Shown here piece by piece: positions 9,427 to 12,257 of a stretch of DNA of 64,000 bases. A program made the position numbers and the translations under genes. The notes under the pieces were generated by a model, which saw only the letters and a list, made by a program, of their open reading frames with translations, did not search any database and was not told where the DNA came from. How positions within the stretch are numbered: the stretch's first letter is position 1; the number at the start of each line of letters is the position of its first letter. The stretch is taken from contig NZ_BOOO01000004.1 in NCBI RefSeq assembly GCF_016863275.1, positions 496,001 to 560,000 on the forward strand. The letters are read 5' to 3'. The DNA is from Planotetraspora mira. Lineage in GTDB: Bacteria; Actinomycetota; Actinomycetes; Streptosporangiales; Streptosporangiaceae.

Positions 9427-9446
9427 AAAGTTGGCTATACAACTTT
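9427..9446 (+). promoter_or_regulatory. Perfect GntR-type operator of the phosphonate-fusion gene
   Basis: AAAGTTG-GCTATA-CAACTTT, 7-bp perfect arms around 6 nt, 20 bp before the ATG at 9467 and just upstream of a strong GGAGG. The core GT..TA..AC fits the HutC/PhnF-type GntR consensus as I know it. It overlaps the region where a -10 (TATACA) would lie, so binding should repress. Confidence 0.65.
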
Positions 9447-9466
9447 TCTCATCCTGGAGGACGACC

Positions 9467-11122
9467 ATGCCGGACCTACCGATTTCCGCGCCCCCCGCGA
9501 CCGATCCCGCCGCCCTCGTCGCGGGGCTGCCTGCGACATGGCTGCGGGACAACTGCCCGTGTGCCGCGTGCCGTGATCCGCGCAGCGGGCAGAAGTTCTT
9601 CCAGATCACCGACCTGCCGGTCGACCTCGCCATCGGCACCGTGACCGCGCGGCAGGTCCACGGCGCGGACACGGTGGAGGTGATCTGGTCTCCGGACGGC
9701 CACCGCTCGCTCTACGCCATTGAGTGGCTGACCACCCGGCCGGGCGACCCGGTCCAGGGAGATCACCGCAACGAGGCCGGAAAGCAGCTGTGGGAAGCCG
9801 CGGACCTGGGGGCACTGCCAGAGGCGGACTGGTCGGACTATCTGTCCGCGGACGGGGAGCGTGCGCGGGTGCTGGAGGCCGTGCAGCGGCTCGGCTTCGC
9901 CCTGCTGCGGTCCGTGCCCGCCGAGGAGGGCCAGGTCCTGGCCGTCGCCCGGTCTTTCGGATTCGTCCGTGAGACCAACTACGGCGAGCTCTTCGATGTC
10001 CGCGTGGAGCCTGCCCCGGACAACCTCGCCTTCTCCTCGCTGGCCATCGCCCCGCACACCGACAACCCGTACCGCGACCCGGTGCCGACCATCCAGATCC
10101 TGCACTGCCTCCGGAACGCGGCCGAGGGCGGCGACTCCGGGCTCGTCGACGGGTTCCACGCCGCGGCGCTGCTGCGCGACGAGGACCCCGAGGCGTTCGC
10201 CGTGCTGACCCGCACCCCTGTCCCCTTCGGCTACCGCGACGCCCGGGCCGAACTGACGGCACACCGCCCGCTGATCGACCTCGACCCGATGGGCCGCATC
10301 CGCGAGGTGAGGTTCAACAACCGGTCGATGGGCACCCTGCGACTGCCCGCCCGCGAACTCGAAGCCTTCTACGCGGCTTACCGCACCTTCGCCGAACTAC
10401 TGCTGCGTCCCGAACTGCAGCTGACGTTCCGGCTGGAGCCGGGCGACTGCCTGATCTTCGACAACACGCGGCTGCTGCACGCCCGCACCGCCTTCGCGCA
10501 GACGGGAGCCCGGCACCTGCAGGGCGCCTACGCCGACCTCGACGGACTGGCGAGCACCTTGGCGGTATTGCGGCGTACCGCCGTCCTGGACGAACTCGCC
10601 GAGCTCTTCAACGGCCCGGGTTCGGCCGACTACCTGGGTGAGGTGGTCACCGTGGCCGAGCACATGCTGCAGGCGGGCGCGCTGGCCGAGGCCGCGGGCG
10701 CCCCCGCGCACCTGGTGGCGGCCGCCCTCCTGCACGACGTCGGCCACTTCTCAGGTCCGGTCAGCGGGCACGACCTGATGGCGGGCACCGACAACCGGCA
10801 CAGCCACACCGGTGCCGACCTGCTCGCCCGCTGGTTCGGTCCGGAGGTCACCGAGCCGGTGCGCTTGCACGTCGCCGCCAAGCGTTACCTGTGCACGGTC
10901 GAGCCCGGCTACCGGGCGCTCCTGTCGGAGGCGTCGGAGTACACGCTTCAAGTGCAGGGCGGCCCCATGGACGAGCAGGAGGCCGCCGCGTTCGCCGCCT
11001 TGCCCGGCGCGGCCGACGCGGTCGCGGTTCGGCGCTGGGACGACGAAGCCAAGGAAGCCGACGCGGCGACCCCGGACTTCGAGCACTTCCGGCCGCTGCT
11101 CGCCTCGCTGCTGCGCCGCTGA
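9467..11122 (+). CDS. TmpA-TmpB-like fusion: 2OG dioxygenase + PhnZ-like HD oxygenase
   Basis: 551-aa protein fusing two enzymes normally encoded separately. Residues 1-365 resemble gamma-butyrobetaine hydroxylase/TmpA: a Zn-binding N-terminal module (C30, C32, C35 and H65) and a TauD-type dioxygenase with the iron triad H197, D199 and H338 and a 2-oxoglutarate Arg near 349. Residues 380-551 are an HD domain of the PhnZ/TmpB diiron oxygenase type: Y389-x-x-E392, H399, H423-D424, H445, H468, K472 and D525, at spacings that match PhnZ (Y24, E27, H34, H58-D59, H80) almost exactly. TmpA hydroxylates the C1 of N-trimethyl-2-aminoethylphosphonate and TmpB cleaves the product to glycine betaine and phosphate, so one polypeptide could do both steps. 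The substrate is inferred; 2-aminoethylphosphonate is the alternative. ATG 9467 has GGAGG 6 nt upstream. No phosphonate transporter is adjacent. Confidence 0.85.
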   Translation: MPDLPISAPPATDPAALVAGLPATWLRDNCPCAACRDPRSGQKFFQITDLPVDLAIGTVTARQVHGADTVEVIWSPDGHRSLYAIEWLTTRPGDPVQGDHRNEAGKQLWEAADLGALPEADWSDYLSADGERARVLEAVQRLGFALLRSVPAEEGQVLAVARSFGFVRETNYGELFDVRVEPAPDNLAFSSLAIAPHTDNPYRDPVPTIQILHCLRNAAEGGDSGLVDGFHAAALLRDEDPEAFAVLTRTPVPFGYRDARAELTAHRPLIDLDPMGRIREVRFNNRSMGTLRLPARELEAFYAAYRTFAELLLRPELQLTFRLEPGDCLIFDNTRLLHARTAFAQTGARHLQGAYADLDGLASTLAVLRRTAVLDELAELFNGPGSADYLGEVVTVAEHMLQAGALAEAAGAPAHLVAAALLHDVGHFSGPVSGHDLMAGTDNRHSHTGADLLARWFGPEVTEPVRLHVAAKRYLCTVEPGYRALLSEASEYTLQVQGGPMDEQEAAAFAALPGAADAVAVRRWDDEAKEADAATPDFEHFRPLLASLLRR

Positions 11123-11129
11123 CCGCGCG

Positions 11130-11912
11130 TCAGCGCGCCGGGCCGGCGTGGCGCAGGCGGGAGAAGGCGGAGGCGGCGATGGAGTTGTGCACCGTGAAGG
11201 CGACGGTGCCCGGCAGGTAACGGTCCTCGGACCACTCCAGAGGCCGCCCCGTCGGATCGGTCGTGTGACGGAGTTCGCGCAGTAGCGCGGTGCCGTCGGC
11301 GCATCCCAGCAGCCGGGCGTCGTCGGCGTCCGCGTAGGCCAGGTCGATGGTGTGGTCGGCGTCGGCGAACACGATGCCGTGCTCCAGCAACTGCTCGGTG
11401 TAAGACACCTCGTTCACCGGCAGCCTGGCCACGAGTTCGCCGACCCAGACCGGGTACACGGTCCGCTCGATCATCACCGGACGGCCCGACAGAGTACGCA
11501 CACGCAGCACCGCGTACACATCGGCGTCCGGTTCCAGGCGCAGCCGCTCGCGCTCCTGGTCGCCCGCGGGGCGGACCACCATGGAATCCAGGACCGCGCC
11601 GGGCTCTTCGCCCACCGACCGCGCCCAGTTGGTGAAGCTGAGCAGTTCGGAGAAACTCTGCACCGGCGCGGTGCCGAGCACCACGCGCCGGGTGCCGCGC
11701 CGGGAGGTGACCAGGCCGTTCGAGCGCAGCAGTGCCAGGGCTTGCCGGATGGTGCCCCTGGAGACCCCGTAGTGCTCGGCGAGGGCCGCCTCGGCGGGGA
11801 GCTTGCCGCCCGAGCCGTACGCCCCGTCCGCTATGGCATCGCGCAGATCCGCGGCCACCCGGCGATACATCACGCCGTCGTCCGTGCCCCGCCGCGACCC
11901 GTCCTGGTTCAT
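11130..11912 (-). CDS. GntR-family regulator with UTRA domain (HutC/PhnF type)
   Basis: 260-aa repressor-type regulator. Residues about 15-80 are the GntR winged helix (LRDAIADGAYGSGGKLPAE, then VSRGTIRQALALLRSNGLV), and about 95-250 are a UTRA effector domain (ERTVYPVWVGELVARLP, HTIDLAYADADDARLL, ending WSEDRYLPGTVAFTVHN). The start at 11912 has GGAG 6 nt upstream. It is convergent with the dioxygenase/HD fusion gene, with only 7 nt between the stop codons, and the perfect palindrome before that gene fits this regulator class. Phosphonate operons often carry UTRA-type GntR regulators (PhnF, PhnR), which supports the phosphonate assignment next door. Confidence 0.9.
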   Translation of the reverse strand: MNQDGSRRGTDDGVMYRRVAADLRDAIADGAYGSGGKLPAEAALAEHYGVSRGTIRQALALLRSNGLVTSRRGTRRVVLGTAPVQSFSELLSFTNWARSVGEEPGAVLDSMVVRPAGDQERERLRLEPDADVYAVLRVRTLSGRPVMIERTVYPVWVGELVARLPVNEVSYTEQLLEHGIVFADADHTIDLAYADADDARLLGCADGTALLRELRHTTDPTGRPLEWSEDRYLPGTVAFTVHNSIAASAFSRLRHAGPAR

Positions 11913-12099: not shown

Positions 12100-12184
12100 C
12101 GGGGGTCGTCTCTCTGGTCAAACGACGAAGGGACCTGCGGTGAGCCGCTCAAAATGGCGGCGACCAGCAAGTCCCTGTCGCGAG

Positions 12185-12257
12185 TGGAGCTATGGGGACT
12201 CGAACCCCAGACCCCCTCCATGCCATGGAGGTGCGCTACCAGCTGCGCTATAGCCCC
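12185..12257 (-). tRNA. tRNA-Ala (anticodon GGC)
   Basis: 73-nt cloverleaf on the minus strand. The acceptor stem GGGGCTA pairs with TAGCTCC (one G-T pair), with discriminator A at 12185. The anticodon arm is CCTCC-ATGGCAT-GGAGG, giving anticodon GGC, and the T arm holds GGTTCGAGTCC. No CCA is encoded. No integrase or duplicated tRNA end was found nearby. Confidence 0.95.

Follow-up and report, generated by a model that had tools for sequence, protein, structure and literature searches.

The gene described here lies in a 64,000-nucleotide stretch (the window) of the actinobacterium Planotetraspora mira, on contig NZ_BOOO01000004.1, in a genome of 9.03 Mb whose nearest named relatives are other Planotetraspora species. 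It encodes a single protein in which a TmpA-type hydroxylase is followed by a TmpB/PhnZ-type HD oxygenase, and, with a probability of about 0.72 as judged from its sequence, it can be considered a bifunctional phosphonate-mineralising enzyme generated by the in-frame joining of a tmpA-tmpB operon into one gene. The N-terminal Fe(II)/2-oxoglutarate domain would hydroxylate the carbon adjacent to phosphorus in a quaternary-ammonium phosphonate, for which 2-(trimethylammonio)ethylphosphonate is the most likely candidate, and the C-terminal HD diiron domain, using O2, would then break the C-P bond to give phosphate and glycine betaine. The scheme is modelled on the chemistry of TmpA and TmpB as set out in two papers (PMC10574752, PMC8177086); from that chemistry, together with domain identity and residues, we infer catalysis, substrate and order of events.

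The frame comprises 551 codons and a single stop, with no stop codon inside it. Residues 21-371 match the NCBIfam model for TmpA, NF049936, with 437.7 bits, above the equivalog cut-off of 400, and residues 372-547 match the phosphonate HD-oxygenase model TIGR03276 with 216.4 bits against a cut-off of 214.6, a narrow pass; by model cut-off, the N-terminal half is thus assigned to TmpA and the HD half to TIGR03276. Pfam places the N-terminal half in the TauD/GBBH family, and the equivalog cut-off of the NCBIfam gamma-butyrobetaine dioxygenase model TIGR02409 is missed (368.8 versus 414.75). The closest chains in the PDB are TmpA 6npb for the first half (E 1e-91) and TmpB 6npa for the second (E 2e-44). 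A sequence-only reading of this DNA had proposed that one 551-residue frame joins the two enzymes, which the stop-free frame and the identity of both domains confirm. It had also proposed that one protein performs hydroxylation and C-P cleavage; domain identity and residues support this, and the two reactions in one polypeptide appear likely. The AlphaFold2 model, built on 127 aligned rows (mean predicted local distance difference test score 93.1, predicted template modelling score 0.86), agrees with the assignment: its residues 8-372 superpose on TmpA (Z 38.9, root-mean-square deviation 1.9, 353 residues aligned) and residues 370-551 on TmpB (Z 27.5, root-mean-square deviation 1.5, 171 aligned), with PhnZ tied at Z 27.1. 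Among the matches listed in the structure comparison, no solved structure spans both halves.

Residue conservation was counted in 42 distinct fused proteins after alignment, and Y-x-x-E was also checked in the unaligned sequences. The iron ligands of the TmpA half, H197, D199 and H338, are identical in all 42, as is R349, the arginine expected to bind 2-oxoglutarate. For the HD half, Y389, E392, H399, H423, D424, H445, H468, K472 and D525 are identical throughout, so that both metal sets named in the sequence-only reading stand. The zinc ligands it had suggested, C30, C32, C35 and H65, stand in part: the three cysteines are identical in 42/42 proteins, and H65 is rejected, since it is a histidine in 5/42 and a gap in 32/42 and the histidine of human BBOX1 aligns instead with H79 (42/42). 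C30, C32, C35 and H79 are aligned with the three cysteines and the histidine of the BBOX1 zinc site, and form a putative GBBH-like zinc site. The positions of Y172, F176, F189 and Y355, which correspond to the aromatic cage of BBOX1 structures, are aromatic in every fused protein. According to one study, aromatic residues common to TmpA, BBOX1 and DfmD could stabilise the trimethyl group, and TmpA holds the phosphonate through N187, N287 and R288 (PMC9296572). The counterparts of these three, N186, N285 and R286, are identical in 42/42 fused proteins, and the position of the phosphonate-binding R286 is occupied by Ala in BBOX1 and by Thr in DfmD.

The pattern of ligands H...HD...H...H...D, combined with the Y-x-x-E loop, has been described for PhnZ and TmpB in PMC8177086, and it was found in 42/42 fused proteins, Y-x-x-E in their unaligned sequences as well; the QGGPM stretch is likewise common to TmpB, PhnZ and all 42 HD halves. 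These observations bear on the view of the HD half as a conventional HD phosphohydrolase or as a regulatory domain that has degenerated, a doubt which the sequence-only reading had tied to HD proteins lacking Y-x-x-E. Nothing speaks for it other than a generic Pfam HD match and the narrowness of the TIGR03276 pass; all four PDB sequences with a match at E <= 0.001 belong to TmpB or PhnZ, and with that cut-off passed and the Y-x-x-E loop and diiron ligands complete in every fused protein, this view is rejected as highly improbable.

A scan of GTDB contigs gave 78 named loci, and the counts that follow refer to these listed loci and are no census; one of them, L103, was relabelled as a reversed fusion before counting. 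TmpA and HD halves share one frame in 38 loci, lie in different frames in 31 and are fused in the reverse order in 3, and a further 3 have the TmpA half only and 3 the HD half only. The 38 forward fusions come from Planotetraspora, Herbidospora, Kitasatospora, Streptomyces and Actinacidiphila and from one Saccharothrix record; four other Planotetraspora species carry the fusion with 93-95% protein identity, and the fused frame is also present in four Herbidospora species. The sequence-only reading had called for a search for the same two-domain architecture, and it is now represented by 42 distinct fused proteins. Within the family of the window, 12 of the 297 genomes searched match nearly the whole protein in one frame, and in a sample of 296 genomes from the phylum the forward fusion was seen in the window's own genome only; few candidates were scored per genome (4 in most family and phylum rows, 7 in the search for triple fusions considered below), which makes such absences weak. 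In each of the four comparisons with a Planotetraspora relative, both halves and the junction contain more synonymous codon changes than amino-acid changes; these are raw counts and not dN/dS ratios. Joining of two adjacent genes by a sequencing or assembly error had been named as an explanation that could overturn the fusion, and in close relatives the two halves are indeed encoded by overlapping genes whose frames differ; the recurrence of the single frame in 38 of the 78 loci, in independent assemblies and including the four further Planotetraspora and four Herbidospora species, leads to its rejection, its chance being close to nil.

The 36 unfused pairs examined, which take in two without an HD start (L100, L137) and two in which the start is far away (L103, L132), suggest how the joining could have come about. 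In 22 of them there is a 4-nt overlap between the tmpA stop and the closest HD start in frame, and a frame change at such an overlap would be the simplest route to the fusion. The history of the two halves was followed in separate trees of 92 TmpA halves and 107 HD halves, with identical halves entered once and L034, L137 and short fragments left out; L028, which gave no hit when the frames of the loci were compared, was dropped as well. A single clean origin of the forward fusion is unsupported: 4 changes of the fused label are required in the tree of TmpA halves and 6 in that of HD halves, and starred branches force at least 3 and at least 4 of these, respectively. The label changes on both trees, and the fusion has therefore been gained or lost more than once; both trees are quick ones with long-branch warnings, and L103 is still labelled as separate in that of the TmpA halves. 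L100, from Streptomyces sp. P3, lies inside a fused clade with its halves in different frames, no HD start near the junction and a Y-x-x-E stretch without the tyrosine; either the fusion has decayed there, or sequencing has introduced a frameshift.

Mobile elements were also surveyed. The phage collection gave one match, to the HD half only. In the plasmid collection 58 records matched, and 8 of them cover at least 80% of the query, each in two pieces; five of the eight show two annotated genes and three show no gene. The best plasmid match is an Embleya replicon (68%) with a span of 1604 bases, and because this is no multiple of three its two pieces are in different frames.

The fusion gene is accompanied by a candidate regulatory system. 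A GntR/UTRA regulator gene flanks all 38 fused loci, always on the opposite strand, at a distance of 10-4967 nt (median 86), and these regulators are at least 66% identical to that of one of the loci, L067; such a gene is found in the flank of 16/31 separate loci. For the regulator in the window a start near 11912 is most likely, because the longer frame, to 12263, reads through a tRNA-Ala gene. Upstream of the fusion lies a conserved 18-bp palindrome, proposed as the operator of this regulator. A scan of 641,898 bases of fused loci, permitting up to 4 mismatches, located the palindrome upstream of the fusion in 37/38 loci, which are related and not independent of one another, and upstream of the binding-protein gene of an ATP-binding cassette (ABC) transporter in 22/22 loci having one; only 4 other matches were found. 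The one fused locus without the palindrome is L095. Each of 20 shuffled motifs gave 0/38 matches before the fusion. Within the window the palindrome is the sole match within 3 mismatches, with none expected from shuffles. The rest of the genome holds one site with 1 mismatch (C5:44713) and one with 2, versus 2 control matches per strand, and the former is taken as a chance match. Among 32 separate loci (L103 and L137 included) the palindrome precedes tmpA in 14, and it precedes the binding-protein gene in 9 of the 12 that have one. The GntR/UTRA regulator probably controls the fusion gene by binding to the palindrome, and in many relatives it probably also controls an aminoethylphosphonate-like ABC transporter.

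That transporter is encoded in 22/38 fused loci, where a binding-protein gene resembling those of aminoethylphosphonate systems occurs with genes for permeases and an ATPase. Elsewhere in the P. mira genome, on contig C41 at 77.2-81.9 kb (L170:3215-7871), there is a set of aminoethylphosphonate-like ABC transporter genes without a palindrome, consisting of a binding protein (62% identical), two permease-like genes recognised by eye, an ATPase and a beta-phosphoglucomutase-like HAD hydrolase. In L067, where a transporter adjoins the fusion, it is followed by a HAD gene that hits the same models; the HAD cluster is present in 11 loci.

Several observations weigh against the proposed enzyme and its substrate. 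The HD half only barely passes the TIGR03276 cut-off, and it misses the NCBIfam equivalog cut-offs of TmpB (NF049941; 195.2 versus 300) and of PhnZ1 (NF052439; 130.9 versus 300); since the TmpB cut-off was tested and missed, it is filed as TIGR03276 and TmpB-like, not as TmpB. In the HD tree it belongs to an actinobacterial clade apart from the characterised TmpB. As to uptake, the scores of the transporter proteins against aminoethylphosphonate models stay under the respective cut-offs, no binding-protein gene was seen in 16/38 named fused loci within the stretch examined, and in the window's genome no such transporter adjoins the fusion, the nearest set being that on contig C41. The same bifunctional chemistry could act on another substrate: aminoethylphosphonate itself, this compound with one or two methyl groups, or a quaternary phosphonate of larger size. 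The missed TmpB cut-off and neighbouring transporters that resemble aminoethylphosphonate rather than betaine systems are in keeping with this, as is PhoF of the fungus Fonsecaea multimorphosa, a fused PhnY-PhnZ that acts on 2-aminoethyl- and 3-aminopropyl-phosphonate according to a 2023 review (PMC10574752). A TmpA-type substrate is nevertheless favoured because the TmpA half passes its equivalog cut-off and because the Asn/Asn/Arg set and the aromatic cage are kept in 42/42 fused proteins; another substrate appears unlikely, and 2-(trimethylammonio)ethylphosphonate is retained as the preferred one. The features of the window and the related fusions are collected in Table 1.

Table 1. Features of the window (positions from its first letter) and fusions of related domains at other loci.
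Feature	Position	Strand or source	Basis
tmpA-tmpB-like fusion gene encoding 551 aa, from ATG to TGA	9467..11122	+	Frame reading, profile matches, relatives, model
Ribosome-binding site GGAGG, spacer of 6 nt to ATG 9467	9456..9460	+	Read by eye
TmpA-type Fe(II)/2-oxoglutarate hydroxylase half, residues 1-371	9467..10579	+	NCBIfam, PDB, alignment, model
TmpB/PhnZ-type HD oxygenase half, residues 372-551	10580..11119	+	NCBIfam, PDB, alignment, model
Predicted single continuous helix across the junction, residues 358-382	10538..10612	+	AlphaFold2
Conserved 18-bp palindrome AAGTTGGCTATACAACTT before the start codon, proposed as operator for the GntR/UTRA regulator	9428..9445	.	Motif scans
GntR/UTRA transcriptional regulator, transcribed towards the fusion; with the Met before NQDGSRR as start, about 260 aa	11130..11912	-	Open reading frame and profile match
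tRNA-Ala, anticodon GGC	12184-12257	-	tRNA in window
Reversed HD-TmpA fusions	L103:7989-9635, L104:7989-9686, L105	Acidimicrobiaceae metagenome-assembled genomes	Frame test
Triple fusions	L174:7442-9784, L172:3483-5756, L173:6792-9143, L175:2980-5202, L177:7891-9918	G267, G646, G714, G073, G724 (in the same order)	

Two further arrangements of these domains were encountered. In three metagenome-assembled genomes of Acidimicrobiaceae (L103-L105) the HD half comes first and the TmpA half second in one frame; the TmpA half groups with actinobacterial TmpA rows and the HD half falls into a different, starred HD clade, which points to an origin independent of that of the forward fusion. L103 carries, in addition, another HD gene, preceded by a PhyH gene similar to methylphosphonate hydroxylase, together with genes for a PhnX-like HAD and a TIGR03364 FAD oxidoreductase. 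The other arrangement is a triple fusion of a PF01663 phosphodiesterase/nucleotide-pyrophosphatase, an HD domain and TmpA in one frame, found in 5/148 genomes of another actinobacterial order, the query's own included; those of G073 and G724 are cut by contig ends, and two more genomes, G693 and G742, show the front part only. D7, T43, D147, H151, D189 and H190, the presumed catalytic set of the phosphodiesterase, are kept across the five triple fusions, and T43 is aligned with a threonine in the structure of a bacterial nucleotide pyrophosphatase. The metal ligands of the HD domain are conserved as well, as are H592 and D594 of the TmpA half (5/5) and its second His (4/4 where sequence remains). 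The residue before the phosphonate-binding Arg, an Asn in the forward fusion, reads N, N, P and H among the four proteins whose sequence covers it, which weakens the analogy to that fusion.

The HD halves of these proteins also differ in the length of the tyrosine loop. Five reversed-order and five triple-fusion proteins, with two genomes shared between the sets, carry Y-x-E, one residue shorter than Y-x-x-E, in their unaligned sequences; in the aligned HD halves Y389 and E392 had looked kept in the five reversed-order proteins. Y-x-x-E is found in 42/42 forward fusions, 32/33 separate pairs and 12/27 stand-alone HD rows, and Y-x-E in 11/27 of the latter. A functional divide among TIGR03276-like proteins may be reflected in the length of the loop. 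Because their HD halves carry Y-x-E, the chemistry of the reversed and triple fusions is less certain. Achromobacter PhnHD proteins belonging to TIGR03276 are described in PMC11203657 without an assigned function, and members of TIGR03276 therefore need not be TmpB-like. A PF01663 gene occurs unfused in G298 (L176:8243-13797), where it follows an HD gene scoring 206.2 bits, just under the TIGR03276 cut-off, and is accompanied by a betaine/choline-type ABC transporter.

The phosphodiesterase of the triple fusion may free a phosphonate from an ester, which is an attractive reading. It would fit a broader picture of modular oxidative C-P cleavage in actinobacteria, with hydroxylase and HD oxygenase joined at least three separate times: as TmpA-TmpB with a GntR regulon, as HD-TmpA with an HD half of another clade, and as a trifunctional phosphodiesterase-HD-TmpA protein that would take a phosphonate ester, e.g., a phosphonolipid head group, to phosphate. 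The Y-x-E loop and the varying Asn of the triple fusions count against this picture, and the odds for and against it seem even.

The variety of fusions also bears on what is gained by joining the domains. The fusion may merely fix a 1:1 expression of independent domains, with the hydroxy intermediate diffusing freely and no channelling between the active sites, which is compatible with the bifunctional enzyme proposed here. The 4-nt start/stop overlap of 22/36 unfused pairs already ties their translation, and the forward, reversed and triple fusions differ in domain order, arguing against any one required geometry; against this, the predicted continuous helix across the junction would fix the geometry, and the fused state has changed more than once on both trees. 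We regard the absence of channelling as a toss-up.

If the bifunctional enzyme proposed here is correct, one protein would turn a choline-like phosphonate into phosphate and glycine betaine, and it would be a simple system in which to test whether two iron oxygenases channel substrate between them. That the same two enzyme types are fused in differing orders is further evidence of their action in sequence, and the triple fusion with a phosphodiesterase suggests phosphonate esters as a source of the substrate. The palindrome and the regulator constitute a predicted regulon in common soil actinobacteria, perhaps with a sensor for methylated phosphonates.

Literature searches, whose coverage mostly lay outside subscription journals so that absence is weak, turned up no report of a bacterial TmpA-TmpB, HD-TmpA or phosphodiesterase-HD-TmpA fusion. 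The kind of fusion is already known from PhoF, and the TmpA-TmpB version in a bacterium is a variant of it. In PhoF, compared here by description only, the hydroxylase is reportedly followed by the HD domain. The statement in the sequence-only reading that no described fusion was known does not hold, as PhoF is already described in the review (PMC10574752). Like PhoF, the protein of the window unites a 2-oxoglutarate hydroxylase with an HD oxygenase in a single polypeptide; unlike PhoF, which is of the PhnY type, it has an N-terminal half of the TauD/GBBH family (the PhnY-type gene in L103 is Pfam PhyH), a bacterial host, and an attached regulator and palindrome.

The closest known system is TmpA/TmpB of Leisingera caerulea (PDB 6npb-6npd and 6npa), the top solved structures for the two halves of the fusion, with which it shares the iron and diiron ligands, the Asn/Asn/Arg phosphonate set, the aromatic cage and Y-x-x-E. 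The Leisingera enzymes are described in PMC10574752 as separate proteins of a two-gene operon, whereas the window encodes one protein, and Leisingera TmpA has none of the four putative zinc ligands that the fusion keeps. PhnY*/PhnZ, acting on aminoethylphosphonate, and PhnY/PhnZ1 of Gimesia maris, acting on methylphosphonate, are also separate enzymes, with a hydroxylase apparently of another family, and the HD half of the window shares with PhnZ its fold and ligands. Finally, the TmpA half has in common with BBOX1, the gamma-butyrobetaine dioxygenase, the fold, the iron ligands, the aromatic cage and the Cys/His residues of the zinc site, and differs from it in having the phosphonate-binding Arg where BBOX1 has Ala.

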